Part shown: positions 43,904 through 63,542 of the stretch, piece after piece | How positions within the stretch are numbered: position 1 is the stretch's first letter | How the letters are laid out: each line of letters starts with the position of its first letter | Assembly (NCBI RefSeq): GCF_001423845.1 | Contig: NZ_LMPM01000003.1 | Coordinates: 186,001-250,000 of the forward strand | Direction: 5' to 3' | Source of the DNA: Sphingomonas sp. Leaf357 | GTDB lineage: Bacteria; Pseudomonadota; Alphaproteobacteria; Sphingomonadales; Sphingomonadaceae | Length of the DNA: 64,000 bases | Position numbers and translations under genes: made by a program | The notes under the pieces: generated by a model | The model's database searches: none | What the model was told of the DNA's origin: nothing | The model's input: only the letters and a program-made list of their open reading frames with translations

Positions 43904-44305
43904 TCAGCCCTTCGGATCATCGTCCGGAGGCGTGGTGCTCAGGATCGAGCGCGCCAGATTCTTGATCATCGTCACCCCGGCTGATTTGGCGATGCTGATG
44001 ACGCCCACGCCAAGCGATCCGATCCCGATCCCGGACAGCGTGGCGTTCATAATCCCCAGCCCTCGGTCGGCGACAATCACGCCGGTCAACAGCACGGACA
44101 ACGCCGTCACGAGTAGCTCGAACACCCACACTTTCTTGCGCTTCGATGGCGTCGAGATCGTGATGCCCCGGACGATCAAAGCGGCGAAGCAGGCGCAAAA
44201 GATGGGCATCACCCAACCGATGGGGGAATGGGGAACGGCTGTCATCGTGGCCCCGGATGCAGCGGCGCTTACAACGAGGCCGACGCTGGCAGGGTAGTTG
44301 ATCAC
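43904..44305 (-). CDS. Small phage membrane protein, candidate holin
   Basis: A 133-residue protein with three to four hydrophobic segments (about residues 6-22, 28-45, 64-82, 88-110) and a charged C-terminus ending in TTPPDDDPKG. Size, topology and position at the end of the late operon suit a holin, the membrane pore that times lysis, but no endolysin gene adjoins, so this stays an inference. The start is a GTG at 44305, preceded exactly four bases earlier by TAAATA, which overlaps the stop codon of the previous gene. Confidence 0.6.
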   Translation of the reverse strand: MINYPASVGLVVSAAASGATMTAVPHSPIGWVMPIFCACFAALIVRGITISTPSKRKKVWVFELLVTALSVLLTGVIVADRGLGIMNATLSGIGIGSLGVGVISIAKSAGVTMIKNLARSILSTTPPDDDPKG

Positions 44306-44309
44306 AGAC

Positions 44310-44316
44310 TATTTAT
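44310..44316 (-). promoter_or_regulatory. TAAATA box four bases before a GTG start
   Basis: Reads ATAAATA-GTCT-GTG on the minus strand. The TAA of the box is also the stop of the preceding membrane-protein gene. Same spacing as the boxes before portal, small terminase, gp4-like and tail-fibre genes. Confidence 0.55.
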
Positions 44317-44846
44317 CGGAATGCCATCCCGAGGGTGACGCTACCGGCCAGAGCCGCAGCCAAAATAACCACTGAAATGAACCGTTTAAGGCTGGCCAAT
44401 TTGTGGTCCTGCCAGACGACCGAGGACGGCGAACGGAGGCGCAAGAGGATTTCAGGATAATAGACCCAAAAGGTGGCCATCCAGAACAACACCGGCACCA
44501 AAGACACGGAGTCGAAGACCCGCTTAACCGATAGGATCGTCTGCAAAGTCGCCGGGGCGGCTTCGCCGTATGAGATCATAGAGGCCACCTCTGGCACGCA
44601 TCGCATCGTGGCGGTCACACAGACGGCCAGAACCAACGCTCGCAACGCGGCTGCGGCATCAATGCCAAGCTCGCGATCCTCATAAAGATGAGTGGCCAGC
44701 ATGCCGCCAAGCATAATCGCCAATGACGGAATGACCGTGAGGGAGAATAGGGCAAACCAGAACAGCGTTCCGCTACCGTCGAAGCTCTGCGGGAATGGCG
44801 ATGTGGTGGCGATGTGGAGCGCCTTCTGTGCAATTTGCGTGTGCAT
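44313..44846 (-). CDS. Phage membrane protein with several transmembrane segments
   Basis: A 177-residue protein with about four hydrophobic stretches (residues 28-52, 68-88, 110-130, 150-172). No recognised domain. Its ATG overlaps the stop of the large ejection-protein gene (TGATG), and the candidate holin follows. In P22-like phages small membrane proteins at this place serve lysis or superinfection exclusion; either is possible here. Confidence 0.6.
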   Translation of the reverse strand: MHTQIAQKALHIATTSPFPQSFDGSGTLFWFALFSLTVIPSLAIMLGGMLATHLYEDRELGIDAAAALRALVLAVCVTATMRCVPEVASMISYGEAAPATLQTILSVKRVFDSVSLVPVLFWMATFWVYYPEILLRLRSPSSVVWQDHKLASLKRFISVVILAAALAGSVTLGMAFR

Positions 44847-47377
44847 CACTTCACCTCATCGAACTCATCGAAGGGGTTGGGTTCTGCCGCAGGTTGAACC
44901 GGGGCTTGGGTCTCGACGGGATCGACTTTGGGCTGGCCGTCAATCGTGATGGCGTGGTCGGGCACCTTACCGGAGACCAGCGCGTCTTTGAGACCGAGGA
45001 TGTTCTGAGCCATGGCCGGATTGCGACGGGCTGCTTCTGACAACCGCTTCGCCACTACCTCAATCCCACGGTTCTCCGATGCCGCTACAAGAGCGCGGGC
45101 AACGCCGGGAGACGCCAGAAGCCTACCACCACCGAGGGCTGCGAGGACGGCTGGATTGAGCAAGCCACCCATCCCGACCGCGCCCAACTCCGCGATGTTG
45201 CCGACCGTGTAGCCGGAACGGCTGGCGTTGCCCTTAGCGCGGAGTGCCCGGTTCGATGATGCCACACGCGCGAGATTATCCAGATCGCGCACGGTCCGAG
45301 CCGGGAGGATCGCCGCCTTGGCTTCGTTGCTGAACTTGTCCCGTCCCCAACTGGTGAGGAAGGTTTCCAAAGAGAATGCCTCCCCGGTCAAATCCTGCTT
45401 GCCGGGATTCGCGCGGCCAAGACTGTTGATGATCGCTCCGCGAACACTGGCCTGTTGATCAGCCGGGAGGACGGCCAGAGACCGTGCAAGCTGGCCGTAG
45501 TCGGTTCTCGACATGCGGGCGATATTGTCCGCCACGGTGTCCGCGCTGTGCTGTCCATCGCCCAAGATCGTCCGAATCGCTTCGAGATTTTGGCCACGAG
45601 CCGCATAATTTTGATCGGCTTGGCGATAGAGGCGAGCCGCGTCCCCAAGACCGTTGCGAGACAATCCGCCGCTGATGTCTTCGCTGAGCCGTGGCCAAAG
45701 CGAGTTCGCGGCTTCACGGACGGTGCGGTTGCCGCTGTCGATGCTGTCGCCGAACGATGTCCGAAGGCGGCGAAGGCCATCCACGGAGAAAGTGCCCGCC
45801 GCCAGATTATCGCGGAGATCGCGAAGAGACTGAGACCCGGCGACACCGCCCGGAACGGCATCCCATTGCGCCAGCTTGCGGTCGATTGCCGCGATGGTGC
45901 GTGGAGTAGGTAGCTGAACATTGCCAGCCGCGTCCGCCGCTTGCTGATAAAGATGGTCGCTGGCGAGCTTCGATTCAGCCTCATAGGCTGCAAGCGATCC
46001 CGGCGAATGCGGGTTGGCCTGTCTTGCGGCCACGGCGTTGAGGTCTTCCGCAATGCCGCCAGCCGCATCGTTGGCGATACGGTCGCGGGCGAGGCCGGAG
46101 TTCTCTTCAACGGCACGGGTAGCGCGCTGGATGCCGCCAAGGTAGCCGGGGATCAACAGCCCTTCACCCGTCGCGGTTAGCGTCGATGCGAGACCGCCGC
46201 CGCTGGTGTGCCCGACTATCGGGCGGATTTGTTCGGCGCGGGGGACGCCAGCGTTGAGGGCATCCGTGGCGTTAAGGAGTTGGCGCGCTTCGCTTGGGGT
46301 AGCGCGGTTGGCTGCGATCCGTTCGCCGATCCGGCCAGTCACGCCACCGACAACGCCTCCGAGACCGGCACCAAGTGCGGCACCTTTGGCACCGCTTTCG
46401 AGACGGTCCACGATACCACCGTCATTGGAATTGAATCCGTAGACGCCACCGTAAGCGGCACCTTCGGCACCGGCACGAGCAGCCGTTTGCAGAGCGGTGC
46501 GACCAACGGCGGCTTCGCCGCCGAACGGTAGCGTGGCGAGTGAACCCGCGATCTGCCCGGTCAGATAGGAGCCGGGATTATAATGTTGCGCGTCGGTAAG
46601 CTGCTGGCGGTTAGCATCGCGGCTCTGCGCGTATCGGTCTCCGAATGACTGGCCATCACCAAGACCGACGATGTTGCCAATGCTGTTGCCAGCCGCATCG
46701 ACGGCACCCGCGATTTCGTCGCCAGCGCCAAGCGAGACGGCATCGAGCGCGCCCGTTACCGCAGCGTCAAATTTGCCCTTGTCGGGTCCGTGATATTCGG
46801 TTTGCGCCCGATCTGGCGTGGTCTGGATGCCGACCTGAATCGTGCCCCGGTTGTTTTTCCGCCATGCCAAAGCTTCATCGAGACCAGACAGCGTGTCCAA
46901 TCCCTTCCCGTCTTTCGCCAGACGAGCCGCGATCTGTTCTTTGGTCGCACCACTGTTGATCAGCATGGCGACATCCGCGTTTAGCTGCTGATCGGCTTCC
47001 GAGACGGTCGCCTTCTGGTCGCCATGGACCTGCATGTTGCCTTGCCATTCTGGTGCGGCTTCGGGTGCCGGGACGGGGTCGGGTTGAGCCATTGGCTGTG
47101 GGGCGGCTTGCTGGTGCGTCTGGTGCGCGGCTTCGGGCGCATCGAACTCATCGAAGGGATTAGGTTCGGCCTGCTGAACCGGCGCCGGTGCCGGTGCCTG
47201 CTGCTGTTGCTGAGCCATAGGTTGCGCATCCGCCGCAGCGTCCGCCATCTGATCAGCGGCGACATTCGCCGGAGCGTTGCCGAAGCGGCCAGCATCCGCC
47301 GCCTCAATCGGTGCCACGAGTGGCGCGAGCAAGGTGCGATTACGCTTGGCGATGATGGAGTCGAAAAAATTGGCCAT
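44846..47377 (-). CDS. Large internal virion / DNA-ejection protein (gp16-like position)
   Basis: An 843-residue protein. The first 130 residues are low complexity (Gln/Ala/Pro). Residues about 190-350 hold glycine/alanine-rich amphipathic stretches (GAALGAGLGGVVGGVTGRIG) that could enter membranes, and the rest is helical. Position after two other ejection proteins matches gp16 of P22, which enters the host with the DNA. The motif PNPFDEFD occurs near the N-terminus and again at the very C-terminus (PNPFDEFDEVK). ATG at 47377 is one base after the preceding stop. Confidence 0.75.
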   Translation of the reverse strand: MANFFDSIIAKRNRTLLAPLVAPIEAADAGRFGNAPANVAADQMADAAADAQPMAQQQQQAPAPAPVQQAEPNPFDEFDAPEAAHQTHQQAAPQPMAQPDPVPAPEAAPEWQGNMQVHGDQKATVSEADQQLNADVAMLINSGATKEQIAARLAKDGKGLDTLSGLDEALAWRKNNRGTIQVGIQTTPDRAQTEYHGPDKGKFDAAVTGALDAVSLGAGDEIAGAVDAAGNSIGNIVGLGDGQSFGDRYAQSRDANRQQLTDAQHYNPGSYLTGQIAGSLATLPFGGEAAVGRTALQTAARAGAEGAAYGGVYGFNSNDGGIVDRLESGAKGAALGAGLGGVVGGVTGRIGERIAANRATPSEARQLLNATDALNAGVPRAEQIRPIVGHTSGGGLASTLTATGEGLLIPGYLGGIQRATRAVEENSGLARDRIANDAAGGIAEDLNAVAARQANPHSPGSLAAYEAESKLASDHLYQQAADAAGNVQLPTPRTIAAIDRKLAQWDAVPGGVAGSQSLRDLRDNLAAGTFSVDGLRRLRTSFGDSIDSGNRTVREAANSLWPRLSEDISGGLSRNGLGDAARLYRQADQNYAARGQNLEAIRTILGDGQHSADTVADNIARMSRTDYGQLARSLAVLPADQQASVRGAIINSLGRANPGKQDLTGEAFSLETFLTSWGRDKFSNEAKAAILPARTVRDLDNLARVASSNRALRAKGNASRSGYTVGNIAELGAVGMGGLLNPAVLAALGGGRLLASPGVARALVAASENRGIEVVAKRLSEAARRNPAMAQNILGLKDALVSGKVPDHAITIDGQPKVDPVETQAPVQPAAEPNPFDEFDEVK

Positions 47378-47378
47378 C

Positions 47379-49097
47379 TTATCGACCCAAGACCTGTGCA
47401 GCCGAGCCGGGACCATATTTCGCTTCGAAAGCGTCTTTTAATGCCGGGTTCGCCCGAAGCTTGGCCGCAGCGCCAGCCGGGAACGAAGGCGTTGCACCAG
47501 CGGGAGCCGCAGCGGTTGGAGCGGCACGAAGCAGCCCGGAGGCTCGCTTACGAGCGGCTTGGAGATCGCCAATGATGACGCGGAGCGATGCCTTGAACTC
47601 ATCCTCCGACATGTTCGGATTGAGCGCGCCAACGGCGTCCGTGAGCTTCTTACCTTCGGCATCGGACAACGCGCCCATGCCTTTAAGAGCCTGAACCTGC
47701 GGCAAAAAGGTCTGCGCTTTGAAAGTGTCGAGGCGCGCGCGGAAGTTTGCCGCATTCGTGCCAGCGAAAGGGAGGCCGGTGACGGGATTTATCTTGCCGT
47801 AGCTGGCTGGATCGAACCCACTGCCCACCGCCGCACTAAGGCCGGGGTGAGTGAGCAAATCGTTTGCCGAACGGATGGCGATGTCCGTGGTGGCAAGACC
47901 GCTTATAACGGCCTGACGATCCTTCGCGGCATCCTTCGTCTTCCCGGCACCGGTTGTAGGAACGCCCTGCTGAATCACACGCGTTGAACGCGTGGTATCT
48001 TGCGGATTCACGACCGCCCCGAGACGGCTCATGACCTGATTTACATAGGCCTGCGTCTTCGGGCCGTGGATCGATTGATCTGGTCCACCATGGTAAAATG
48101 CAGCCGCTTTCGCTGGATCGCCACCGGTCGAATCGAGCGCCGTCTGTGTATAGGCAATGCCAAGCTTGCGCTGATATTCGAGACCTTCCGGCGACTTGGC
48201 CGTCATGAGATCGGGACGCCATGGAATATTGAGTTTCTGAGCCATGCTCTGAGCCGTAGCCGGGAGCATTTGGCTGGCACCTTGGGCACGGCCATACTTC
48301 GTCGCGGGACCAATAGCCCCTGCCCGTCCGCCAGATTCTTGGGGTTCGATGGCGTTGCGGTAAAGCTGTTCCGCCGTCACGCTACCGGGAGCGAGATTGG
48401 TCCCGGAGGTGTAGCCATCAGCGGTCTTGCCGCCGACTTCGATAACCGAATTGCCGACCGGGCTATTGATATACTGCGGTGCACGGAACACCTCTTGGCC
48501 ACTCCGCGTGACCAGCGAGCCGCCCACCACAACCGGCTGTTCAGCCGCGATACGGCCAGTCTGTGCGCTGAACTCCGCCGTGTTCGCGCCCTGCTGTTTG
48601 ATCGAGTCATCGACGCCCGCGCCATAGCTGTAATCGACACGGCTAAGCGCGCGGATGTTGTCATCCGTGGGATCGAAATTGTCGATGCTGGCGGCATCCA
48701 AGCCCTGATTCATCAACAGCGGCTTCGCGCTGGCAATCGCCGCACGGCGCTGTTCGTAAGGGAGCGCGCCGACCGCGTTGGTAATGTTGGCCAGCGCCGT
48801 GGTGTTCTTCGCGCCACGGTCGAAACGATCTTTGCCCAATCCGGCCAGAACGGTTGCCGATTTGTCGTCGCCGTATAGCGCCGCCTGCGCTGCGGCCTTG
48901 CTGTAATCGCCAGTGGAGAGGGCGGCTGCGATGCCGGTGCGTGCTGCCTGCTGATCGCGTTGAGCCTGCGCCTGCAATCCAATCTTACGCTGCGCATCGG
49001 CATCCGCGCGCGCGATTTCCTGCCCTTCGCGGAAGCTATCGCCAAGGTTATTAGAGGCTGCGCCGTTGCGGAGATAAGATGAGAAATCAAAAGCCAT
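47379..49097 (-). CDS. Ejection protein with lytic transglycosylase domain (gp20-like position)
   Basis: A 572-residue structural protein. Residues about 245-365 form an SLT-type lytic transglycosylase domain: catalytic Glu254 in AIEPQESGGRAGA, then AQGASQMLPATAQSMAQ and AKAAAFYHGGPDQ. Such domains locally open peptidoglycan so the ejected DNA and proteins can cross the periplasm. The flanking regions are helical. The gene follows the 234-residue ejection protein by two bases and precedes the gp16-like gene by one. A GGAAAGGAAATGG stretch upstream supplies a ribosome site. Confidence 0.82.
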   Translation of the reverse strand: MAFDFSSYLRNGAASNNLGDSFREGQEIARADADAQRKIGLQAQAQRDQQAARTGIAAALSTGDYSKAAAQAALYGDDKSATVLAGLGKDRFDRGAKNTTALANITNAVGALPYEQRRAAIASAKPLLMNQGLDAASIDNFDPTDDNIRALSRVDYSYGAGVDDSIKQQGANTAEFSAQTGRIAAEQPVVVGGSLVTRSGQEVFRAPQYINSPVGNSVIEVGGKTADGYTSGTNLAPGSVTAEQLYRNAIEPQESGGRAGAIGPATKYGRAQGASQMLPATAQSMAQKLNIPWRPDLMTAKSPEGLEYQRKLGIAYTQTALDSTGGDPAKAAAFYHGGPDQSIHGPKTQAYVNQVMSRLGAVVNPQDTTRSTRVIQQGVPTTGAGKTKDAAKDRQAVISGLATTDIAIRSANDLLTHPGLSAAVGSGFDPASYGKINPVTGLPFAGTNAANFRARLDTFKAQTFLPQVQALKGMGALSDAEGKKLTDAVGALNPNMSEDEFKASLRVIIGDLQAARKRASGLLRAAPTAAAPAGATPSFPAGAAAKLRANPALKDAFEAKYGPGSAAQVLGR

Positions 49098-49099
49098 TC

Positions 49100-49804
49100 T
49101 TAGATACCATTTCCTTTCCGCAAGTTATTCCAAAGACTCTGATCGATTGGGGAACCGCCAAGCGTGTGTTGTGTGGGGGTGCCATACGAAGAGCCGAACA
49201 CCTGTCCGCCAGCCTTCAATAGACCGCTGACGGTATTATTGATGTTCTGGCCTTGGAACATCGCGGCACCGGAAGCCGCGTCCGCTGCATTCTGCGAGAT
49301 CGCATTAGAGGCATTGGCATAATTGGTGGAGACACCGGCAAGAGCGCCCTTCGCGGCGCTACCACGATTAGCCACGCTGCCAACTTGATCGACATAAGTG
49401 TTGAAAGTCGAATCAGCGACATTCATGGCCTGCTTTTGGAGCGCCTTTAAGGTCGCACCGCTGTTGCCCTGTCCGCTGGCGTAAGCGTTTGAATTGACGC
49501 CTTTAAGCGCCTCATCGACCCTGAATTGGTAGCCGGGGGTGCTGTGGAGAAGCGCGCTCGCATCCACTTTGTTGCCCGACAATCCGAACAAATCATTTAT
49601 GCGGCCAGACGCGGCATCGCCAGACCCGATATCGGTCCCGAAGCGATTGGCGTTCTGGTCGTAAATGCTTTTTTGAAGTGCAAGCTGCTGAGCTTGCGAA
49701 TTGGCTTGGATTTGTGCTGCGCTTTTCGCGCCCTTGCCACTGGCGACACCACCAGCGACTGAGCCAACCGCGCCAATTCCTGCGGCTACTACTGCTGCGG
49801 GCAT
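49100..49804 (-). CDS. DNA-ejection protein (gp14/gp7-like)
   Basis: A 234-residue protein with an Ala/Gly-rich N-terminus (VVAAGIGAVGSVAGGVASGKGAKSAAQ) and a conserved-looking middle TPGYQFRVDEALKGVN...ASGQGNSGATLKALQKQAM, the pattern seen in phage ejection proteins of the gp14/p32 group. It is the first of three in a row, as in P22. Its ATG lies two bases after the stop of a six-codon mini-ORF, which itself follows a TAAATA box, so translation may depend on re-initiation. Confidence 0.75.
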   Translation of the reverse strand: MPAAVVAAGIGAVGSVAGGVASGKGAKSAAQIQANSQAQQLALQKSIYDQNANRFGTDIGSGDAASGRINDLFGLSGNKVDASALLHSTPGYQFRVDEALKGVNSNAYASGQGNSGATLKALQKQAMNVADSTFNTYVDQVGSVANRGSAAKGALAGVSTNYANASNAISQNAADAASGAAMFQGQNINNTVSGLLKAGGQVFGSSYGTPTQHTLGGSPIDQSLWNNLRKGNGI

Positions 49805-49805
49805 A

Positions 49806-49826
49806 TTAATAGAACCTCATGATCAT
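49806..49826 (-). CDS. Six-codon mini-ORF before the ejection-protein operon
   Basis: Reads MIMRFY-stop. It starts exactly four bases after CATAAATA and ends two bases before the ATG of the 234-residue ejection protein. It overlaps the perfect 16-base palindrome CCTCATGATCATGAGG (49815-49830). It may be a leader peptide, or chance; only the box spacing and tight coupling support it. Confidence 0.35.
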   Translation of the reverse strand: MIMRFY

Positions 49827-50057
49827 GAGGTATTTATGCTGGCGCGTCTATACTTTGGCGGAGGTGTCCCGGCACCGCGTCGCGGGTCTGAGAGGTGGCA
49901 CCGGAACAGCTAACCAATGCCAACATATGTGAGAAGCGGCAACCTGATCTTTATCAGAACACGGTGTTGTCCCCGACATCTACCGAGGGCGAAGGGATAA
50001 ATGCCGGGAACGCCATGGTGTCGGCGATGAACAAAACATACGCCATAAAGGTCGTTA
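49827..50057. other. Non-coding leader region of the ejection-protein operon
   Basis: About 230 bases without a convincing gene. It holds the TAAATA element, two direct GAGGTG(N)GGCACC-like repeats (around 49862-49905) and otherwise nothing recognisable. It probably separates two transcription units within the late module. Confidence 0.5.
49831..49846 (-). promoter_or_regulatory. CGCGCCAGCATAAATA element upstream of the ejection genes
   Basis: The same 16 bases occur at 56164-56179 on the same strand, upstream of the scaffold gene. Both copies have GGGACACCT a short distance further upstream. The TAAATA part is four bases from an ATG here. A phage promoter is the simplest reading. Confidence 0.6.
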
Positions 50058-50579
50058 TTAACATTTGTTATGTTCGTTCCAATGATCCGCTAACCATCTT
50101 TCGCGCGAGTTTCGAAAATATTCGACATCGCCAGCTACATGATGGTGGCCAGTGCCAGCGGAGACGCCTCCGATCTTCGGGAAGAACTTCAAGGCACGAG
50201 GGTTATCCACCGCGACTTGGCCCCAGATCATATCCGCTCCCCATTCCGTGAACATCTCATGCAGGAGACCTTTCATTTCCTCCACGAGATTGCCGCCGCG
50301 TGCGTTGGGATGGCTGATCGTGTGAACCTCATAGACACCGGGGGCGGACCATTCGAAAATCAGCGCGAGCGAAGGAAGCGGAGCGCCAGCCATCACATCG
50401 TCCATCGTCAATTCGCGGTCACCGTTATGCAGGACGATGAAGCGCCAGTCTTCGAACAAGTTGTCCAACAGAAGAAATCCATCGGTCTCAGGATGATCCT
50501 CCGGGTTCCATAGTAGCCATCTTACGGTTTCGGGGTGATTAGCCAGCGTGTTCAAGGCCGATGGGTCATAGGTTCTCAT
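50058..50579 (-). CDS. Phage GNAT-like virion-associated protein
   Basis: A 173-residue protein resembling N-acetyltransferase-fold phage proteins: a middle beta region (APLPSLALIFEWSAPGVYEVHTISHPNARGGN) and a later VAVDNPRALKFFPKIGG, like the acetyl-CoA-binding and C-terminal part of GNAT proteins. In T7-like and P22-like phages similar proteins lie beside ejection genes and are virion-associated. No proof of enzymatic activity. Its ATG overlaps the stop of the Hint-domain gene (ATGA). Confidence 0.6.
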   Translation of the reverse strand: MRTYDPSALNTLANHPETVRWLLWNPEDHPETDGFLLLDNLFEDWRFIVLHNGDRELTMDDVMAGAPLPSLALIFEWSAPGVYEVHTISHPNARGGNLVEEMKGLLHEMFTEWGADMIWGQVAVDNPRALKFFPKIGGVSAGTGHHHVAGDVEYFRNSRERWLADHWNEHNKC

Positions 50580-52914: not shown

Positions 52915-53486
52915 CAGAAATAATCACCGCGAACAACCGTGGACGGGTTGGACCAATTATGCGCGATGCCCATGTGGAACCGGGCGGCGTTCATGCGGAT
53001 AATATCTGAGGCTTGCTGGCCATACTCATCGGCCAACTCGGTTGCGAGGGTGCAGACGAGACCGAGAGGATCGCGGTTGCTCATCGGTGCGGTGTCGGTG
53101 AGGGTTAGCTCCGTAAGCAGCACCCACGATTTGACCGCGCCGTCGTAGAGCCAAGCTTCGGTTTCATCGGTGTAGCTGTCCGAGATAATGACCAAAGAGC
53201 CATCGAGCGGGGCACGATCCCGGCCACAATCGTTGATGGTGTCGGGAAGCGAGATGACTCCGACCATACCGTTGCTGCGGATGACGCGTTCGTTCTCGCC
53301 AGCGGTGTAATCGCCGGTCGGGACTACATCGCGGAGGGTGCCGAACACCCCTTCCGTAATGAGGCGGAGATAGATGGCGCTGAGGACATCGAGCGCGTCA
53401 TTGGCTTCGATATCGGATGGCGCGGTTCCTGCGGCCAGAACGCCAATCCGGCGAAGAGCGCGTGAAATTAGGTCTAAGCAATTCAT
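52914..53486 (-). CDS. P22 gp4-like tail accessory / head-tail connector
   Basis: A 190-residue protein starting MNCLDLISRALRRIGVLAAG, the pattern of gp4-type connector proteins (helical start, then EANDALDVLSAIYLRLITEG). The start ATG at 53486 is chosen because TAAATA lies exactly four bases upstream, with no Shine-Dalgarno; an in-frame start at 53564 would add 26 polar residues with no family resemblance. In P22 gp4 binds the portal ring and may also have muralytic activity; the latter cannot be judged here. Confidence 0.75.
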   Translation of the reverse strand: MNCLDLISRALRRIGVLAAGTAPSDIEANDALDVLSAIYLRLITEGVFGTLRDVVPTGDYTAGENERVIRSNGMVGVISLPDTINDCGRDRAPLDGSLVIISDSYTDETEAWLYDGAVKSWVLLTELTLTDTAPMSNRDPLGLVCTLATELADEYGQQASDIIRMNAARFHMGIAHNWSNPSTVVRGDYF

Positions 53487-53490
53487 CAGG

Positions 53491-53497
53491 TATTTAG
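53491..53497 (-). promoter_or_regulatory. TAAATA box before the gp4-like gene
   Basis: Reads CTAAATA-CCTG-ATG on the minus strand. The box is the loop of a five-base-pair hairpin (TCAGG/CCTGA, 53486-53502). It is more than 600 bases from the preceding gene, so this copy cannot be a by-product of an upstream stop codon. Confidence 0.6.
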
Positions 53498-54072
53498 CCT
53501 GAGGGTGGCTGTCGCTGCGGAGCGACCATCGCGGCTTTTGTTTGCAAACCGCTTTGCCAGCCATTGCGCCGGTTAATGGGTTTTATAGCCATTACCGTGG
53601 ATCAAAATGTGTGTGCAGTTTTACGCGCTTTAAAAAGCCAACATATATCTTATGTAATTTATGGCACATAAAACGGCTTATATCGCCGGATTAAAGGTAA
53701 AGGCATTAAACAACGGTAGTTCCAAACGCCCTTACTAATTGCCATTAAACTCAGCTACTAAAAGTTATTCACAATAGATGTGATATATTGCACAAAAAAA
53801 CAGCGATTTCATTCCGCGAAGCGCGATTTTACTTGCAGATTTTTTGATTTGGTCTCACGAGATGGACCGGAGGCCAGCACCGGCCAGCCTCCGATTCGAA
53901 ACCGGGTTACCGCCCGGTCCTATCACTCCAACGCCACCGGTCGGCAGAGAAAGAGAGAAACCCTATGTGGCAAGCCGCCATAATATAGCAGTGCCGGGAT
54001 AGGCACCGCTTAAGCCCGGACAGGGGGCGCGTCTACGATTTTCGTCGGCGCGCTCTTTGTGTGTCAGACGCT
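53498..54072. other. Long non-coding region between coat-gene terminator and gp4-like gene
   Basis: About 580 bases without a convincing gene on either strand. The left part (53570-53800) is AT-rich. The right part has two stable hairpins: CGGAGGC/GCCTCCG (about 53870-53896) and ACCGGG-TTACCG-CCCGGT (about 53901-53920). An apparent TTCGAAA loop there resembles a tRNA T arm but no tRNA can be folded. It may hold regulatory RNA or a promoter region for the downstream tail genes. Confidence 0.5.
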
Positions 54073-56003: not shown

Positions 56004-56163
56004 AACTACCTCAACCAACTACGCGTGGCCTGCGAAACGCCCGATTAAATGACGGCGACTCATCTTCGATCACGGCTCGAAAGACCGGCTGCGCACACGG
56101 TATGCAGCGTCCGAAAGCGCCCTTGGGTTGGCGACACCGAAGACCGGTGAGGGTCTCTGTCTT

Positions 56164-56179
56164 TATTTATGCTGGCGCG
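56164..56179 (-). promoter_or_regulatory. CGCGCCAGCATAAATA element upstream of the scaffold gene
   Basis: Identical over 16 bases to the element at 49831-49846, same orientation. Here no start codon follows at four bases; the scaffold start is about 160 bases downstream and has its own Shine-Dalgarno. This copy argues that the box can act as a promoter rather than only as a translation signal. Confidence 0.6.
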
Positions 56180-56268: not shown

Positions 56269-56892
56269 ATGAAGTGGTTTTTAGCGTTTACACTGGCGGG
56301 CATGGCTACACCGACTTTTGCTGCGGTGCCGTTCAACGGCAACCAGACTTATAGCCTACCGGGGGCGACGGTCGCACCGGGTAATCAGCTATATCTCGGC
56401 GTGAACGCCAGTTTGAATTACACGCTGACGGGATCGTTCACGATCACATCCGGAAACGGCGATATCGGTATTCGTCCGCTGGTTACAACGACGCTGAACA
56501 GCCTTTATGCCGGGTCAATTAATAGCCTCACTTACTCGTCTTCTTATTCGTATTTCTCGGGTGGATCGGTAGGTGATACAGTCAATTTCTCACTGCAATA
56601 TAATTTTACGAACACGGGATTCATTCTTCCGACCGATGGCAGTGCCGGTTTAATCTATTTATCACAGAATGCATCCGTGTCGCCGATTGATCTTGGCGCG
56701 TTCGGCGTGACGGTAAACAATTACGCGCTGTCATTCACATCAGGCCAAGTGGACTTCACCTATATCCAGCGTCCCATTGCTGCCGCCGTGCCGGAAATCG
56801 GGACTTGGGGCATGATGATCGCAGGCTTCGGCATGATGGGTGGCGCGATGCGCTATCGTCGCCGGTCGGTACGGATCGCCTTCGCCCGATAG
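56269..56892 (+). CDS. Secreted PEP-CTERM protein inserted in the phage morphogenesis module
   Basis: A 207-residue protein with a signal peptide (residues 1-18, ends FAA). The mature part is rich in Ser, Thr, Tyr, Asn and Gly and predicted all beta. The C-terminus has the sorting signal of the PEPxxWA type: AVPEIGTWGMMIAGFGMMGG followed by RYRRR. Exosortase-like machinery recognises this tripartite signal (PEP motif, membrane helix, basic cluster). It lies on the strand opposite to all neighbouring phage genes and is closed by its own terminator, as expected for a phage-carried cargo gene (moron). AGGGGTCTGAG precedes the ATG. Confidence 0.87.
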   Translation: MKWFLAFTLAGMATPTFAAVPFNGNQTYSLPGATVAPGNQLYLGVNASLNYTLTGSFTITSGNGDIGIRPLVTTTLNSLYAGSINSLTYSSSYSYFSGGSVGDTVNFSLQYNFTNTGFILPTDGSAGLIYLSQNASVSPIDLGAFGVTVNNYALSFTSGQVDFTYIQRPIAAAVPEIGTWGMMIAGFGMMGGAMRYRRRSVRIAFAR

Positions 56893-56909
56893 TGCCAATA
56901 CAGTCAAGG

Positions 56910-56938: not shown

Positions 56939-56944
56939 CTCGTG

Positions 56945-58846
56945 TCAGTATCCGGGCTGCGGCTGCTGCGGCTGCGGCTGCGGCTGCGGCTGCGTGGCCA
57001 AATGCATTGCGACCAAGGCTTGGGTTTCAAGCTCCGTGCGCTGAGCTTCGGCAACGGCCTTGCTTGCGTGTGCGGCATCCTTGGCCGTCTTCGCCTGCTT
57101 TGCCTCGATGTCAGTTTTGGCGTTTTCCATTTGCATTTGTGCCGCTGCGGCCTGCTGTTCGCCGCCCTGCTGCTGCTGTTCCGCCGCCAGACGCTTGATC
57201 CGGTCGATGGTCTCGCGCTTGTTTGGAAGCTGGCTCATTTCCAAGATCAGCAAGAACTCCGGCGACGAGATCGGCGTCTTGGTCGCGCTGGCGTATTCGA
57301 GGATTTGGGTCGAGATTTCGTGTTGCAACGAGATCGTGTCTGGCGTGGTCGAGAGGATGATATCGAGGTCCAACTCGGCAAGACGGTTCTTCATGCCGAC
57401 AATGCCCATACCGGCGCGCATGATCGGCTGGCCGGTCATCGGATCGACGGCGGGTTGACCGGTCGCCGGGTCGATAACGGGCTGCTGCACCGGACCCATA
57501 ACCGGCTCATTGATCGTCAAAAACTCAACGGCGCGCGGATCGTCGGCAATGCGGATCGCGGTTGGCTGGTCCAAATGCTCCTTAGCGATCAACCACATCT
57601 TGCGGTAAATCGTGAGTTCGAAGTCTTCGAAACGGCTAAATCCACGGCTGATTTCCGTGTTTCCCGCCTGTTGAAGGATCTGGCGCGCGCGGCCAGATTC
57701 ACCGGCTCCGCCAGAGCGTCCGAGGACAGCCGGGGTTGGTGCCATACGGTCCAGATCGGCCATGGACTGTTGAAGAATGAGCATCTGGCCTTGCGCCAGA
57801 TCGGGTGCCTGAATTGGCGAATATCCGAACGGAATAACGCCATCGGCCTTGCCACCTTCGCGGCGTGCGATGTCTTTGTTCGCCGCTGGTGCATACAGAT
57901 CGGTCTGTTGCATCTGGCGATGATTCACGAGGTGCAAAAGGCGCGAAGAACGCGCGTTTACGCTGTCTTGGAGCGGCACCATGTTGCGGATCGGGCCGTA
58001 GCGGGTGCCGTCCGGACGCGTTTCGAAGCTTGCCGCAGTAATCGGGCAAATGGTCTGGCCGTAGTCGTCATGATAGACGGACTCGCCAGCCCAAAGCATA
58101 CCGGCATCACAGAAAATAGCGCGGTGCCAGTCGCCAGCAATTTCATAGTAGAGGTCTACAACACGAAGACGGTCTCGCTTCGGGCTGCACCACCACTTTT
58201 GCTTGTTATCTTCATCGAAGAACGCCGCGGCATCGCCATTTTTAGGGCTTCCAAGAGCCGCATAGGCCTCCGGGAACATGGCTTCGACATCCGTAGCTTC
58301 CACCATCTTACCCAAGCCCATGAACTTTGCATCTTCGAAGTCATGTTCACGCGACAACGGGTCATAAATGAGGTCTTCCCAGCGGATTCGGCTGGCGGTG
58401 ATATGATCCCCGGCAAACTCCAAGATTGCAGCGCAAGTGCCTTCAATCAGGAAGTTTTCCGAGGATTTACGGCGCGTCGTCTGCCAATTTGCCCGTTCGG
58501 CGAGGTAGCGAAGGGTCTTGGTCGCAACATCCGCCGCATCTTGGCTCTGCGGAGTGCGTGGAAAGGCTTCGGGATCGCTCGAAGCGGCATCAACAAGGCC
58601 AAAAAGGCCATTGATCGCAGGAGCAATTTTGTTGTTTGGGTGTGGCGGCTGGCCGCGTTTGGCCAGCGTTGCCTTCATTTCGGCGCTGATCTGGTCGCCG
58701 TCAAAATAGCGACGATCCCGCTTGCTCAGATTGGCGTTCGTGCGTCCGGAATCCAAAAATCCCTGCACGATCTGCTTTAAATGACCATGCGAATACGGTG
58801 CTTTGTAGGTATCTGCGATTACTTCGTTGAGAGGCTGTTCTTCCAT
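56945..58846 (-). CDS. P22-like portal protein
   Basis: A 633-residue portal. Family-like stretches include RYFDGDQISAEMKATLAKRG, NNKIAPAINGLFGLVDA, ICPITAASFETRPDGTRYGPIRNMVPLQDSVNARSSRLLHLVN (the region that forms the wing/crown) and VDLYYEIAGDWHRAIFCDAGML. Portals form the dodecameric ring through which DNA is packed. The C-terminus is a helical, Ala/Gln-rich stretch ending in a Pro-Gln repeat, coded by an array of CTG/CGG-type repeats at 56955-56995. Start ATG follows TAAATA at four bases. Terminase lies directly upstream. Confidence 0.88.
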   Translation of the reverse strand: MEEQPLNEVIADTYKAPYSHGHLKQIVQGFLDSGRTNANLSKRDRRYFDGDQISAEMKATLAKRGQPPHPNNKIAPAINGLFGLVDAASSDPEAFPRTPQSQDAADVATKTLRYLAERANWQTTRRKSSENFLIEGTCAAILEFAGDHITASRIRWEDLIYDPLSREHDFEDAKFMGLGKMVEATDVEAMFPEAYAALGSPKNGDAAAFFDEDNKQKWWCSPKRDRLRVVDLYYEIAGDWHRAIFCDAGMLWAGESVYHDDYGQTICPITAASFETRPDGTRYGPIRNMVPLQDSVNARSSRLLHLVNHRQMQQTDLYAPAANKDIARREGGKADGVIPFGYSPIQAPDLAQGQMLILQQSMADLDRMAPTPAVLGRSGGAGESGRARQILQQAGNTEISRGFSRFEDFELTIYRKMWLIAKEHLDQPTAIRIADDPRAVEFLTINEPVMGPVQQPVIDPATGQPAVDPMTGQPIMRAGMGIVGMKNRLAELDLDIILSTTPDTISLQHEISTQILEYASATKTPISSPEFLLILEMSQLPNKRETIDRIKRLAAEQQQQGGEQQAAAAQMQMENAKTDIEAKQAKTAKDAAHASKAVAEAQRTELETQALVAMHLATQPQPQPQPQQPQPGY

Positions 58847-58850
58847 CCAC

Positions 58851-58857
58851 TATTTAG
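58851..58857 (-). promoter_or_regulatory. TAAATA box before the portal gene
   Basis: Reads CTAAATA-GTGG-ATG on the minus strand. The TAA is the stop codon of the large-terminase gene, so the element bridges the two genes. Confidence 0.55.
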
Positions 58858-60401
58858 CCCCAACACGCATCGCTCGCGTCTGGTAGGGACGGGACATAGT
58901 ATTCGTCTTTTGCAGGCTTGTGTTTTACTACCGGAATGAACGCCGGAAGGGCTTCGGCGATAACCCTCGCCATCGCTGAATCCGCGTCCACCTGATCGTC
59001 ATGCTTGCCGTGAGGAAAGGTCAGATATTCCGTAAGCGCGCCGTCACCTACCGCCCCCACGGGTAGGTAAACGCGCCCCATTGAAGCCATGGCTTGGTAG
59101 CTGGTGGCCTTCGCAACCTTGTCCCCGGAGCCGCGTGTCGCGAGCGGGATAATCCGACAAAAGGTGTCGGTTTCGAGCATCGCCGCGTTGACCATGCTGC
59201 TGATCGCCGACCATGTATTATCGTTTTCGGGATACCATCCCATCGGGTTCCATTTTTTGATCATGGCCAGCGCCCCGGTCTCACCGATCATCGGCTTTCC
59301 AGTCTCTGGATCGCGGGTCATGCCGATGGCGACATCCATGGTGCAACGGTCGCGGAAGCTATCGACCATCCAGATATTCCGGCCCTCATCAACGCCCCAC
59401 ATCCGGAAGACATTGTAGTCGCCCCGGCCAGACGGCGCGTGGTCGCTTGTCATGTAATAATGGAGGTTTTTGGGAAGTTCGTGCGGCTCGAAGCGGTTGA
59501 ACCAAGACTCTACGAAGAACCCGTCATCCAGCGGAACCGGGCGCTGCTGATACTGGCCAGCAAAACCAAAGACGCCAAGCGCCTCTCGATAGATCGCAAT
59601 TTGCTCATCGGTGTAGCGTTCGGGGAACATGTTCTCCCCTTCCTCCCGATGATCGACCCAACCGATGCGGGTTGGCTTTCGGACTTCGCCGTCCGCAAAG
59701 AGCGGGATGCATAGATGATCGAACTTCAACGCTTTCTTGGATAAAATCTCGCCACTCAAATCCTCTTCATGAAGCCGCTGCATCACGACGATGATTGAGT
59801 CTTTCTTGGGATTGTTCAGACGGTTCATGACCGACCGGAAGAAGTTCTCGACGGTGCCTTTTCTGATGACTGTGGACTCGGAGGTTTTGACGCTGTGCGG
59901 ATCGTCCACGATGACGATATTGCCGCGCGAACCCGTCATGGCGCTGATCGGGTGCGCCTTGCGGAAGCCCTTGGCCATGTTGGAGAAATTGGACTTGCCG
60001 TCGCTGTCCTGAACGAACTCAATCGGCCAGTAGCGTTGATACCAACTGGTCTTCACAAGATTGCGATGTTCGCTCGCGTCTCTAATCGCGAGTTCTTCGT
60101 TGTGCGCGGCGCTGATAATGCGCTTGGACGGATCGCGTGCCCAAACCCAAGCCGGGAATAGCACATCCACGATCTTTGACTTACCGGAGCCGGGACAGAT
60201 ATTGATTAGGAGCCGCTGGCCACCAACTTCGTAGACATCTTGGAGGTGGTCCGCTAAGACCTTGATATGCCAGTTATTGACGAAGGGTTCGGGGTCGATT
60301 TCGCCCCAAGCTGCGGCAATGAAGGCTGCGAAAGAGCGTTCGTAATACTCCTTCGCAACCTTATCGATTTCGCGCTGATTGAGCAGCGCATTCTTGGTCA
60401 T
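58854..60401 (-). CDS. Terminase large subunit
   Basis: A 515-residue TerL. The ATPase domain has Walker A CPGSGKS (69-75) and Walker B VIVDD (163-167). The coupling stretch VVMQRLHEEDLSGEIL and GQYQQRP are typical of phage TerL, and the nuclease domain is seen in TSDHAPSGRGDYNVFRMW and the late HGKHDDQVDADSAMAR with its acidic residues. It drives and cuts DNA at the portal. The start overlaps the small-terminase stop (ATGA). Order small terminase, large terminase, portal is as in P22-like phages. Confidence 0.94.
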   Translation of the reverse strand: MTKNALLNQREIDKVAKEYYERSFAAFIAAAWGEIDPEPFVNNWHIKVLADHLQDVYEVGGQRLLINICPGSGKSKIVDVLFPAWVWARDPSKRIISAAHNEELAIRDASEHRNLVKTSWYQRYWPIEFVQDSDGKSNFSNMAKGFRKAHPISAMTGSRGNIVIVDDPHSVKTSESTVIRKGTVENFFRSVMNRLNNPKKDSIIVVMQRLHEEDLSGEILSKKALKFDHLCIPLFADGEVRKPTRIGWVDHREEGENMFPERYTDEQIAIYREALGVFGFAGQYQQRPVPLDDGFFVESWFNRFEPHELPKNLHYYMTSDHAPSGRGDYNVFRMWGVDEGRNIWMVDSFRDRCTMDVAIGMTRDPETGKPMIGETGALAMIKKWNPMGWYPENDNTWSAISSMVNAAMLETDTFCRIIPLATRGSGDKVAKATSYQAMASMGRVYLPVGAVGDGALTEYLTFPHGKHDDQVDADSAMARVIAEALPAFIPVVKHKPAKDEYYVPSLPDASDACWG

Positions 60402-60775
60402 TTGGTTTCGGCGGTCTTCTTCGCCGCCATGATCTGCGCGATGACTTCATCATTAAGCGATTTCACATCGATTGAATCAAAGGTATCGTTGCCGCCGGAA
60501 ACGCGAATGCTGGTCGCTGGCTTGCCAAAGGCGCGATCATTGAACTCTTTAATTGCGGAGATGCGCGCCGTCGCTGGCGTGTCTTTCGCCGCGATAACCT
60601 TCATGAGTTCGAAGAAAACATGAGCCGCGTTCTGGCGGTAGAGTTCGGCTATCTCGACTTTGTTGCCGACATAATCTTTGACATATTGCGGCTTATTGCC
60701 GCCCTTGGGGTTGCCGCTCTGGCCTTTCTGAAATCGGCCTTTGATGACTTTGGTATCGGGGGGAGTATCTTCCAT
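60398..60775 (-). CDS. Putative terminase small subunit (DUF5681-like)
   Basis: A 125-residue basic protein. The N-terminus has the pattern KGRFQKGQSGNPKGGNKP, typical of DUF5681 proteins found beside terminases, followed by a helical region and ITMAAKKTAE-like C-terminus (VIAQIMAAKKTAETK). The small subunit recognises the packaging site. Position directly upstream of TerL supports the call. Start ATG lies inside a hairpin and is four bases after TAAATA. Confidence 0.75.
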   Translation of the reverse strand: MEDTPPDTKVIKGRFQKGQSGNPKGGNKPQYVKDYVGNKVEIAELYRQNAAHVFFELMKVIAAKDTPATARISAIKEFNDRAFGKPATSIRVSGGNDTFDSIDVKSLNDEVIAQIMAAKKTAETK

Positions 60776-60794
60776 CGAGTATTTAGCTCGATGG
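60772..60794 (-). promoter_or_regulatory. TAAATA box as loop of a perfect hairpin before the small terminase
   Basis: CCATCGAG-CTAAATA-CTCGATGG on the minus strand is a perfect eight-base-pair stem with the seven-base box (60780-60786) as its loop. The start codon of the small terminase (60773-60775) is in the 3' arm of the stem, so if transcribed the hairpin would hide it. Confidence 0.65.
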
Positions 60795-60814
60795 AACGAA
60801 CGCCGTGCCCTCGG

Positions 60815-61516
60815 TTAGTTCACCGTGCAGCCACGGCTTTGCGCGAAGGCCTTGTAGAGCGGATAAACGGCTTCAAGATACGCCTGTCCTCTCGCATTCT
60901 CGACAATAGCGAGCGCAGCGATGTCCGCCGCTCCCTGATAGTTTGCGTTTAGACGACCCATGACCTGAATGGGGTTCGTGCTACGCGTGGTAGGGACGGT
61001 GTATCCGCCTAAGGTGGCGTCATCGAAGACCGTGCCGTTAGCGTCGATGCGGTAGATGCGGGCAAGCTGGCCAACCGTGAAATTGGCCATGAACAAGGTG
61101 AAATTGCCCGCGTTCGGCTGATCGAGGATCGCCTGATCTGTCGATCCGGACGCGCCGCCATGACCGGCGCTGATCTTTCCTTCAAGGGTCGCGATGACAT
61201 TGTATTCGAAAGACGATGGATTCAGGATAACGGGACCACCAGCCGAGCGCATTAGCATGAGGACCGACGCCGAAGCCGGGAGGGGGATATCGAGAAAAAA
61301 CCCGGTGTTGTCAGTATAGTTGAGCGCGGCGTAACCGGGCTGGATCGACGGTGAACCGATAACCCCCGCCATGTTGCCGGTGATGGCGTTGAGGCGTGAA
61401 TCCGCCAGAGTGCCGCCGAACCAGAACTCGCCACGGACCCCGTCGAAGTTCGGGAGGGTGTTCGAGCCAAGCGCATTTTGAATAGCGATAGCGCCGGTCG
61501 TAAAAATCTGTGTCAT
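60815..61516 (-). CDS. Phage tail-associated beta-rich protein
   Basis: A 233-residue beta-rich protein beginning TQIFTTGAIAIQNALGSNTLPNFDG, with regular short strands and a concanavalin/LamG-like feel (FTLFMANFTVGQLARIYRID). No catalytic motif. Such proteins in phage tail clusters often bind receptor glycans or decorate fibres. I chose the ATG at 61516, which overlaps the stop of the tail-fibre gene and has AGAGGAAC about nine bases upstream. Assignment is by context and fold impression only. Confidence 0.6.
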   Translation of the reverse strand: MTQIFTTGAIAIQNALGSNTLPNFDGVRGEFWFGGTLADSRLNAITGNMAGVIGSPSIQPGYAALNYTDNTGFFLDIPLPASASVLMLMRSAGGPVILNPSSFEYNVIATLEGKISAGHGGASGSTDQAILDQPNAGNFTLFMANFTVGQLARIYRIDANGTVFDDATLGGYTVPTTRSTNPIQVMGRLNANYQGAADIAALAIVENARGQAYLEAVYPLYKAFAQSRGCTVN

Positions 61517-63531
61517 AGTCCAAGTTCCTCTGATGTCATTGTCCACCCTTCGCCAATCGCGGGATTGTGGAGTGGCTCATTTTTAAAGTCGTCAATCGTG
61601 ATTATGTCGCCCATACGGTCCCGAAGCGCGCAGACCGCCTCCGAACTTCTATTTAGGAGCTTTGAGCCAACATTGAGCTTGTTTCCCGCTACGGCGATAT
61701 TAGGACCGATGATAAGAATTTCATTCCGCGATATGACGGAGACATCTCCAAGCGGAATATTCACATCGTTCGCATCGGTGACGAAAAAACCATTTTGCAA
61801 CATGCCAGCCGTCGCAATGCCCGTGCTGTTAAGCCGGATGTTCGATTGGTCCATGAAGAGTTCGCCATCGAAGGGAACATCATATTTGACGATTAGACGA
61901 TTGACCGATTCTCGACGGCAACGCACCCGCCCACGGGCGTCGCGAGAGATTTGCAGCGGACGCCACGGGCGCTTCAAATAGATCGTTGAGAAATCAGCTA
62001 CCGCGCATCGCGCACCATACATGAAATAGCCTTGGTTAGCGAGGTGAACCATATCGAACTGGCTTCCGGATTGGCCTGCGACTTTCAAATCCCAGATCGG
62101 ACCCGCAATTTGAACTAACGGGGACTGGCGCGCTGCGGTTGAGAACTTCAACGAAGAGTCGCCAAAGCGAGCCTGATAAGTGAGAAGGCCAACCGGTTCG
62201 GTCTGGCCGGTGATGGCGCGGACGCGGGTGTCGATGGAGTTTGCCAGTGCAATTAGCTTGGTGGCATACTGGTCATCGTTCGGACCTTGGCTTTCGACCT
62301 GCATCCACTTGACCGGTGCCACCACGACCTTGCGACCAGCGCGGAGATTGACCGCCGCTTGAACGCCGAGGATGAAGCGATCAAAGAGACCGGTGCCTTC
62401 GAGGAAGCCGTCAATTGCGGTTTCGCCCTGCCCCGGTGCCATGCTGATCGTGGACATGGGATTATCGAGGGGCGGTATACCGTAGGCGTTGAAAAGCTGA
62501 GCCATCATGGCGTTGTAGCCGCCGTGGATCGTCTCGCCTGCGCCGCCTGTCGGGCGTTGTGCGGCATAGGGGATCAGCGATGAGACATTGTTGCCATTGT
62601 CCTGATAGCGGACGCCGCCTGCGAACATGAGGTCATGGTAATAATCGGTCGGCGATAGAAGCTTGTAGTCTTCCGTATCGTTGCTCGAATTGGTGCCGAT
62701 AGACAGCGACTGTCCGAAGGTGGAATTGACCAGCAAGCCGATGTCGCTGCGCTGGACGCCGCCGTTGCCGAAGAACGCGACGATGGCGCTGGCGGGGCGT
62801 CCGCCAATCGTGCCAGCGGTGAGATCGCGGACATAGGCTTTGCCGATGCGTGCGCCGGTTGAGCGAACATCCATGATCGCGCGACGGTTTGGGCCGATGA
62901 CTTGGAGCGCGGAATCAGGGTCGGGATTATCGGAAATGCGCCGACCGCTCGAACCGACAAAGTAGCTTCCCACCGCTCTGATTGCCGCGCTGGTGAAAGT
63001 GCCAACCGTGTCGATGACGGCAACGCGACGGCGGAGACGGTCTGTGAACTCGAAAAGCGCGCCGGGTGTGGCGTTGGACGAGATGGTGCCGACGATGCTT
63101 GTGAGGTTCGTGGCCGCGTTCTGTGCCGCCGTCGCGGAGTCCGACGCATGAAGCTCGCTCGCGTGTGCATCGGTCGCTGATGCCACGGCCTCATTTCTGG
63201 CGGTCAAAAGAGCGGGCGAGATATCGCCGGTATCGCCTTTTTGGCCGGTGTCGCCCTTCTGGCCGGTGTCGCCCTTGATCGAGCGAACCGTCTTGGTCCA
63301 ACGGCCAGTCGTGAGGCCGTTGACCGCAACCGTGGTGACGCCGTCTTCGGTGGCGGTGCTGGTGCTGGACCAGATGAAGATGCCACCAAGACCGTCATCC
63401 GTGCCCGTCTGGCCGCGAACAAAGGCAATGAGGCCGTCTTTTAATTGAACTGCTTTGAAAGTGCGGAGATCGGCGACGACATCGAGCGTGACGGAGACGG
63501 TGCCGTAGCGAGGGAAGTTTACTGAGGTCAT
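61513..63531 (-). CDS. Tail fibre/spike with collagen-like linker and SGNH-hydrolase-like domain
   Basis: A 672-residue protein. An N-terminal head-binding-like part (residues 1-80) leads to collagen-like triplets GDTGQKGDTGQKGDTGD (about 88-104), then helices and a beta-rich middle. Residues about 380-545 resemble an SGNH/carbohydrate-esterase domain: APGQGETAIDGF early and DMVHLANQGYFMYG late, the latter holding the Asp-x-x-His pair. The classical serine is not obvious in the first motif (GQGE). It probably binds and may deacetylate host surface glycans. The ATG at 63531 is four bases after TAAATA; a start at 63654 would add an unrelated N-terminus. Confidence 0.72.
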   Translation of the reverse strand: MTSVNFPRYGTVSVTLDVVADLRTFKAVQLKDGLIAFVRGQTGTDDGLGGIFIWSSTSTATEDGVTTVAVNGLTTGRWTKTVRSIKGDTGQKGDTGQKGDTGDISPALLTARNEAVASATDAHASELHASDSATAAQNAATNLTSIVGTISSNATPGALFEFTDRLRRRVAVIDTVGTFTSAAIRAVGSYFVGSSGRRISDNPDPDSALQVIGPNRRAIMDVRSTGARIGKAYVRDLTAGTIGGRPASAIVAFFGNGGVQRSDIGLLVNSTFGQSLSIGTNSSNDTEDYKLLSPTDYYHDLMFAGGVRYQDNGNNVSSLIPYAAQRPTGGAGETIHGGYNAMMAQLFNAYGIPPLDNPMSTISMAPGQGETAIDGFLEGTGLFDRFILGVQAAVNLRAGRKVVVAPVKWMQVESQGPNDDQYATKLIALANSIDTRVRAITGQTEPVGLLTYQARFGDSSLKFSTAARQSPLVQIAGPIWDLKVAGQSGSQFDMVHLANQGYFMYGARCAVADFSTIYLKRPWRPLQISRDARGRVRCRRESVNRLIVKYDVPFDGELFMDQSNIRLNSTGIATAGMLQNGFFVTDANDVNIPLGDVSVISRNEILIIGPNIAVAGNKLNVGSKLLNRSSEAVCALRDRMGDIITIDDFKNEPLHNPAIGEGWTMTSEELGL

Positions 63532-63535
63532 CCCA

Positions 63536-63542
63536 TATTTAG
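63536..63542 (-). promoter_or_regulatory. TAAATA box before the tail-fibre gene
   Basis: Reads CTAAATA-TGGG-ATG on the minus strand. It is the first (most upstream) box of the visible late module; the next gene to the right runs the other way, so this copy marks the head of the leftward transcript. Confidence 0.6.

Follow-up and report, generated by a model that had tools for sequence, protein, structure and literature searches.

A conserved TAAATA box as a probable late promoter for leaderless messages in temperate phages, mainly of sphingomonads

An exact box upstream of prophage late genes

The 64,000-nucleotide stretch of the Sphingomonas sp. Leaf357 genome analyzed here (contig NZ_LMPM01000003.1, positions 186,001 to 250,000; hereafter the window, to which unlabelled coordinates refer) ends in the left part of a prophage of about 36 kb, which occupies the last 20.7 kb of the window and in which the box [C/A]TAAATA precedes a series of podophage genes, typically four nucleotides upstream of the start codon. 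The best explanation of this box, with a probability that we estimate at about 0.7, is a phage late promoter that would give rise to leaderless messenger RNA (mRNA), combined with a hairpin lock against read-through. This interpretation is carried by the sequence of the box, its spacing and exactness, and paired arms around it beyond chance expectation, all in two unrelated types of phages and with neither a -35 element nor a Shine-Dalgarno sequence at the box starts.

The motif TAAATA-N4-RTG occurs six times in the window, always on the minus strand, against 0.07 expected (100 shuffles, with a largest shuffle count of 1), and the bare hexamer 11 times against 3.1 expected; all six boxes listed in the original prediction, made from the sequence of the window, were found in place on this strand, together with the six four-base words that it gave between box and start codon. 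Across the 3.87-Mb genome, TAAATANNNNATG has eight matches, all within the prophage, five in the window and three to its right (C3:254477-, C3:255611- and C3:263133+, with the strand as sign), and the GTG form has two matches, namely the prophage site at 44315 and one on C1. A hexamer-by-offset ranking in the prophage places TAAATA-N4-ATG third (p 1.3e-9, tied with a fourth), the neighboring words mostly deriving from a palindromic repeat array, and the best p value for any word when 43 kb of host DNA are ranked in this way is 5e-5. A chance origin of the box is rejected: the window, genome-wide, spacing and exact-word counts (see below) all speak against it.

All boxes in the window that could be assigned to a gene are on the minus strand. 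CTAAATA-N4-ATG is found by pattern match before the tail-fibre gene (box 63536..63541, start codon at 63531) and the gene in the small-terminase position (60780..60785; gene 60398-60775), before the portal gene (58851..58856; gene 56945-58846), which has no stable hairpin in this phage, and before the gp4-like adaptor gene (53491..53496, start codon at 53486), where the conserved N-terminus of the family begins at the box ATG. ATAAATA-N4-GTG precedes a gene for a 133-amino-acid protein (44310..44315; gene 43904-44305), with no start-codon hairpin predicted. Two further ATAAATA boxes stand before leaders: one, a pattern match, before that of a DNA-ejection-type gene (49831..49836; gene 49100-49804), and one, with no adjacent start codon, before the 160-nt leader of the scaffold gene (56164..56169), between this gene and the divergent gene 56269-56892. 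At two of the six sites, the TAA of the box doubles as the stop codon of the upstream gene (44315, gene 44313-44849; 58856, large terminase). No role could be assigned to the prophage copies of TAAATA at 61655, within the tail-fibre gene, and at 56661.

Occurrence of the box in two unrelated groups of phages

Ten related sets of P22-like podophages have genes headed by the box, and eight sets of HK97-type siphophages have it as well. Orthologous genes are preceded by it in a Sphingomonas faeni prophage (L004, the same stretch as L084) and also in further relatives with 44-79% terminase identity, among them two prophages of the same-genus genome G005 and one of the same-family genome G364. In three distant relatives (G186, G277 and G254, with coat proteins 33-40% identical), there is no TAAATA at N4 or N5, and the hexamer totals are 1, 2 and 4 in 35, 20 and 20 kb, respectively. 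In the phage collection, all terminase and portal matches are below 60% identity, and no close cultured relative was found.

The motif search in the complete prophage and its relatives, suggested along with the original prediction, thus turned up the motif in both; the claim of an invariant spacing holds for all six sites of the window, whereas the relatives use either 4 or 5 nt. Some phages have N4 and others N5, the S. faeni prophage showing N5 at five of six sites. Among the 89 boxes of 11 podophage sets, 49 are at N4 (28) or N5 (21), with one each at N3 and N6, and the adaptor protein begins with MNC exactly at the box ATG in seven of the nine sets that have an adaptor.

A second S. faeni prophage (L190, L191) contains 11 TAAATA-N4-ATG sites, all on one strand, and its terminase, portal and HK97-type capsid protein match Pfam and NCBIfam models quite unlike that of the P22-like portal in the window. 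A pattern scan that yielded 23 stretches added seven siphophage-type contigs, each with between 4 and 9 sites, and most of the other stretches contained a single site; contigs found via the hairpin pattern hold at least one preselected site. In an all-against-all protein comparison, the structural genes fall into two separate groups, of eight siphophage and six podophage sets.

Altogether, 19 sets contain 274 distinct boxes, of which 87 are at N4, 54 at N5, 1 at N3 and 5 at N6, and 17 precede leaders with a Shine-Dalgarno sequence. Only the exact word is used: 136 exact boxes are at N4 or N5, compared to at most 4 for any one-mismatch word. Of the pairs of opposite-strand boxes within 70 bp, seven are divergent and one is convergent; in two of the seven divergent pairs both genes start at N4 or N5, and in one case (L229) just 6 bp separate the boxes. 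In 298 genomes of the family, the box counts are mostly 0-5 per strand, and the few high-count genomes have equally many reversed-pattern controls; the exception is G005, in which 16 of the 18 sites are within its two prophage regions.

Promoter-like features

In the published descriptions, the T4 late promoter is TATAAATA at -13 to -6, with 'a/gC' at -13/-12 (PMC2988020), and that of Aeromonas phage Aeh1 is CTAAATA from -12 (PMC1524935); further sources drawn on are PMC2988022, PMC3014915, PMC8948821, PMC5312081 and PMC5648845. The position that would correspond to -12 in the box is occupied by C or A at 57 of the 59 podophage sites and at 80 of the 85 siphophage sites, and the base before it is G in 39 of the 59 podophage sites. 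With the distance from the box to +1 inferred from the start codon, the geometry matches that of the Aeh1 CTAAATA, so that N5 places the predicted +1 on the A of the ATG.

No excess of -35 elements is seen upstream of the box (1 of 59 podophage sites against 8.8 in shuffles, 14 of 85 siphophage sites against 12.7), and none is present at the box starts; sigma-70-like promoters in the module number 8 compared to 8.3 in shuffles, with one on the minus strand. A Shine-Dalgarno sequence reaching -5 kcal/mol is found at 5% of 123 box starts, compared to 15% of random positions and 39% of other long open reading frames; a leaderless mRNA would need none. A promoter of the T7-type single-subunit polymerase was rejected given that there is no strongly conserved upstream region. 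A terminator scan (27 against 21.5 in shuffles) is not used as evidence.

The original prediction had offered two readings, a phage-specific promoter that makes leaderless or near-leaderless mRNA and a translation-start element for a modified ribosome or phage factor. The former is the better supported one, through the match to Aeh1 and T4 at a matching distance, the missing -35 element, the divergent pairs and the boxes before Shine-Dalgarno leaders. A modified ribosome does not accord well with the retention of the box at places that have no start codon nearby, as in the scaffold leaders of 11 of 11 podophage sets (partly read by eye).

Hairpins around the box

At many sites, the box is flanked by complementary arms, which covary within the prophage (CGAG-CTAAATA-CTCG, CAGG-CTAAATA-CCTG and CGGG-CTAAATA-CCCG) and reach up to 11 bp (CGTCGTGCGAG-ATAAATA-CTCGCATGACG in L179). 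In the window, all on the minus strand, the adaptor box is enclosed in TCAGG-CTAAATA-CCTGA (53486..53502), which reaches the A of the ATG; the box of the small-terminase-position gene is in a 9-bp hairpin, TCCATCGAG-CTAAATA-CTCGATGGA (60771..60795, -14.3 kcal/mol), that has the start codon in its 3' arm and beats any of 48 swapped upstream arms; and folding predicts a hairpin TCGTCCC...GGGATGA before the tail-fibre gene (63528..63554), with the box in a large loop and the start codon in the 3' arm. For the hairpins of the ATG type, the observed total stability was unmatched in 300 swaps of upstream arms, with z of -8.3 for 59 podophage sites and -9.5 for 79 siphophage sites, sites matching the hairpin pattern having been removed before the siphophage test; the sequences being related, these tests are less independent than the z-scores suggest. 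The covarying hairpins were overlooked in the original prediction, which took one of them for a six-codon mini-ORF at 49836. This is better read as the stem-loop CCTCATGATCATGAGG (49815..49830, minus strand) in the leader of the GAGG-bearing gene that starts at 49804, and L177 retains the stem at the equivalent position (CTCCAAAG-atcaa-CTTTGGAG) without the ATG.

In this stem-loop, the CCTC immediately after the box pairs with the GAGG Shine-Dalgarno sequence, and RNA starting at 49826 would lack the CCTC; the predicted unpaired fraction of the Shine-Dalgarno sequence is 0.00 in read-through RNA and 0.47 if RNA starts at +5. More generally, the pairing partner of the Shine-Dalgarno sequence in leader-type units is the run of four to six bases that directly follows the box (CTCC, CCTC, CTTCC). 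Across 17 leaders, the mean predicted unpaired fraction is 0.09 in read-through RNA, 0.15 for a start right after the box, 0.47 from +5 and 0.33 with random first bases, and values below 0.1 are reached by 13, 12 (from +1), 1 and 2 leaders, respectively. A first test, in which the first six bases were shuffled among leaders, was negative (11 of 22 against 9.9); such swapping is a weak control because the arms look alike, and the later tests used random bases and truncation. At about half of the sites, the start codon or, where there is a leader, the Shine-Dalgarno sequence is covered by the arms in the predicted folds, an arrangement that is new here.

The scaffold leader (56004..56163, minus strand; scaffold ATG 56003-56001) is a case of its own, with a conserved RNA structure beside the Shine-Dalgarno sequence. 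The claim that coat and scaffold genes have Shine-Dalgarno sites and no box stands for coat only, the scaffold gene having its box 160 nt upstream (56169). In the leaders of 11 podophage sets, a conserved GGGCGUUUCGCGA segment lies between two short hairpins (G364 and the phage in the window deviate), and the hairpin arms covary as GNCA...UGNC around CGCG[CU]AG[AU]; there is no Rfam match, even at E 0.5. The scaffold gene of P22 is autoregulated, and this RNA is possibly an autogenous operator of the scaffold protein.

The proposed mechanism and the points against it

We propose that [C/A]TAAATA constitutes positions -12 to -6 of a T4/Aeh1-type phage late promoter devoid of a -35 element; transcription would begin 5-6 nt past the box, in most assigned units at the start codon itself, yielding leaderless mRNA, and in the others at the head of a leader with a Shine-Dalgarno sequence. 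Complementarity to the ribosome entry site is seen in many units, residing upstream of the box in the leaderless type and between the box and +1 in the leader type. Given that in both classes the 5' arm is located upstream of the predicted +1, only read-through RNA would fold shut over the start codon or Shine-Dalgarno sequence and stay silent, whereas RNA started at the box, without the 5' arm, would be open for translation. We are somewhat inclined to see in this a new late-expression system of temperate phages, mainly of sphingomonads, common to unrelated podophages and siphophages, in which a dedicated factor other than a recognizable gp55 or sigma-70 protein would read the invariant box and fire leaderless mRNAs from many promoters per genome, many of them hairpin-locked against lysogenic or early read-through.

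Several observations weigh against this interpretation. As many as 110 of the 274 boxes lack both an adjacent start and a recognized leader; these include chance hexamers and leaders missed by the assignment rules, such as scaffold leaders. The relatedness of the phages means that their sites are not independent. At N4 sites, the A of the ATG falls at -1, one base short of the T4-type +1, and the tetranucleotide following the box (most frequently C or T, then T, G and G) is not AT-rich, unlike in T4. The hairpins are not universal (z below -1 at 23 of 49 sites); the mean start-codon accessibility is 0.31, compared to 0.39 with swapped arms (108 sites), and is the same as with swapped arms in the S. 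faeni siphophage and in G364, with the opposite direction in L177 and L218. On the protein side, the gp55 profiles phrog_234 and phrog_12791 have no match with E up to 10 among 14 genomes or records, several of these being fragments; no Sigma70_r2 domain was detected in the prophages or virus records; and all-against-all comparisons gave no protein common to all sets.

Other explanations of the box

The exact word, the spacing and the arms would be accounted for equally well if an endoribonuclease cut long late transcripts 4-6 nt after UAAAUA, removing the 5' arm and exposing the start codon or Shine-Dalgarno sequence, and the authors of work on T4 caution that primer extension cannot separate initiation from processing (PMC2988020). 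However, where boxes stand back to back in divergent pairs, once just 6 bp apart, and at the scaffold box, which is likewise in a divergent position, a nuclease would find little sense RNA upstream to cleave. The match to the Aeh1 promoter in both sequence and distance would become a coincidence, and no nuclease candidate emerged, none having been searched for; we consider processing unlikely. The fixed distance to the start codon and the many sites with the box in the loop and the start codon in the stem would also suit an mRNA element, hairpin or box, that is recognized by the ribosome or by an RNA-binding protein of the phage controlling all late starts. Such translational control appears quite improbable, considering that the box is far from any start codon in all of the scaffold leaders and outside the hairpin in leader-type units, that about half of the sites lack a strong stem, and that neighboring genes such as coat have an ordinary Shine-Dalgarno sequence and no box.

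The housekeeping -10 consensus of Caulobacter, GCTANAWC, is similar to the box. The box could be the -10 element of a host sigma factor, absent from host genes due to base composition, and the failure to find a shared phage factor fits this explanation. It is nevertheless the least credible of the three and very improbable: TAAATANNNNATG does not occur outside the prophage in the Leaf357 genome, the low counts in the 298 family genomes and the concentration of the G005 sites in prophages point the same way, and the box tolerates no mismatch and has no -35 element.

Search for the recognition factor

The original prediction had suggested looking for a phage RNA polymerase or sigma-like gene to the right of the window; no match to sigma-70 region 2 or gp55 was found in the prophage; a phmmer search with T4 gp55 gave no match either. 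A tblastn search with a Rhizobium-phage clamp detected no clamp in the podophage and siphophage loci examined, no search for the clamp family having been made. The only candidate for the recognition factor, and a weak one, is a 280-amino-acid protein encoded to the right of the window (C3:256418-257260) and found in box phages of both types (this prophage, G005a, G567 and faeni2), with its genes each standing behind boxes. In a large database, it has two matching proteins, one being itself; its structural model is poor (predicted local distance difference test, pLDDT, 65), with no PDB match below E 0.001 and two viral matches below this threshold, neither with a named function. The leader of its gene contains two boxes, the first followed by a short open reading frame, with its ATG at N3, that is enclosed in a conserved hairpin; both prophages compared show this (L002:9245-9366, that is, C3:256246-256366, and L182:12990-13121).

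In the 16-3 group of temperate phages of the Rhizobium type, a gene for a DNA polymerase beta clamp is accompanied by genes for one or two sigma-70-like proteins (18434-19504 and 20758-21273 in L221, MN988496; 45106-46164 and 47709-48715 in L219, OP484857), a T4-like pairing of clamp and sigma in siphophages that lack the box. Two Rhizobium phages with sigma and clamp genes, AP-16-3 and RHph_TM3_3_14B, were discarded, the 50 kb examined of each containing no box at N4 or N5.

Prophage context

The prophage is bounded by an exact 48-bp repeat of the tRNA-Arg end, with the left copy (attL, no strand assigned) at 43279..43326 and the right copy at C3:265597-265644, right of the window, within a tRNA-Arg gene (tRNA-Arg(cct), L002:18598-18674) that adjoins a tyrosine-type integrase gene. 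The podophage module comprises genes for the tail fibre, large terminase, P22-like portal, coat, adaptor, head-closure and DNA-ejection proteins; the small-terminase and scaffold genes were assigned by position and conserved neighbors. Two prophage proteins contain a PEPxxWA-CTERM surface-sorting domain (56269-56892, plus strand; L002:12746-13474, minus strand), the former being inserted divergently beside the scaffold gene and 81% identical in L175. Right of the window, six 33-nt partly palindromic repeats of the GGTGCCATTCTCTTAGAGAATGGTCC type, 64-100% identical (L002:8902-9189, that is, C3:255902-256189), form an array between the lysozyme gene and the rightward genes.

Implications and comparison with known systems

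In the literature searched, we recognized no description of this box system. If the interpretation is correct, T4-type late promoters and hairpin locks would not be peculiar to large lytic T4-like phages, both having arisen in, or spread to, small temperate phages, where a lock would have the obvious benefit of preventing expression of structural and lysis genes in the lysogen. Leaderless mRNAs would then be available in natural sets, the box would serve as a simple marker by which metagenomes could be searched for such phages, and the search for a new promoter-recognition factor would have a defined target.

The MS2 coat operator is a hairpin that contains the start codon and has a conserved loop. 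The hairpins described here share this arrangement but differ in that the stem is dispensable, a hairpin not being present at every start, and in that the box persists without a nearby start codon. The promoters of phiEco32 gp36 (tAATGTAtA) are similar in having one conserved element, no -35 and a start 6-8 bp downstream; the word, however, is different, and phiEco32 encodes a recognizable sigma factor, which the box phages do not.

The closest parallel is with late promoters of the T4 type, which, according to the literature, are read by gp55 with gp33 and gp45. Shared features are a single TATA-like box about one turn before +1 without a -35 element, a C (as in Aeh1) or A (as in T4) at -12, an association with late genes and use of both DNA strands; the differences are that the box phages are small temperate podophages and siphophages, that in most of their assigned units the predicted +1 coincides with the start codon, that the downstream segment is not AT-rich and that no gp55 relative was found. 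Because these last two features were looked for and not found, we do not class the box as a T4-type late promoter, although it would work like that of T4 and Aeh1. The lock, in turn, resembles that of T4 gene e, soc and I-TevI, where a hairpin hides the ribosome site in read-through RNA and late RNA lacks the 5' arm; here, as judged by folding, the ribosome site is hidden in 13 of the 17 leader-type units in read-through RNA and in 1 of the 17 from +5. Unlike in T4, the arrangement is found at many promoters per genome and often appears, from the sequence, to hide the start codon of a leaderless message.

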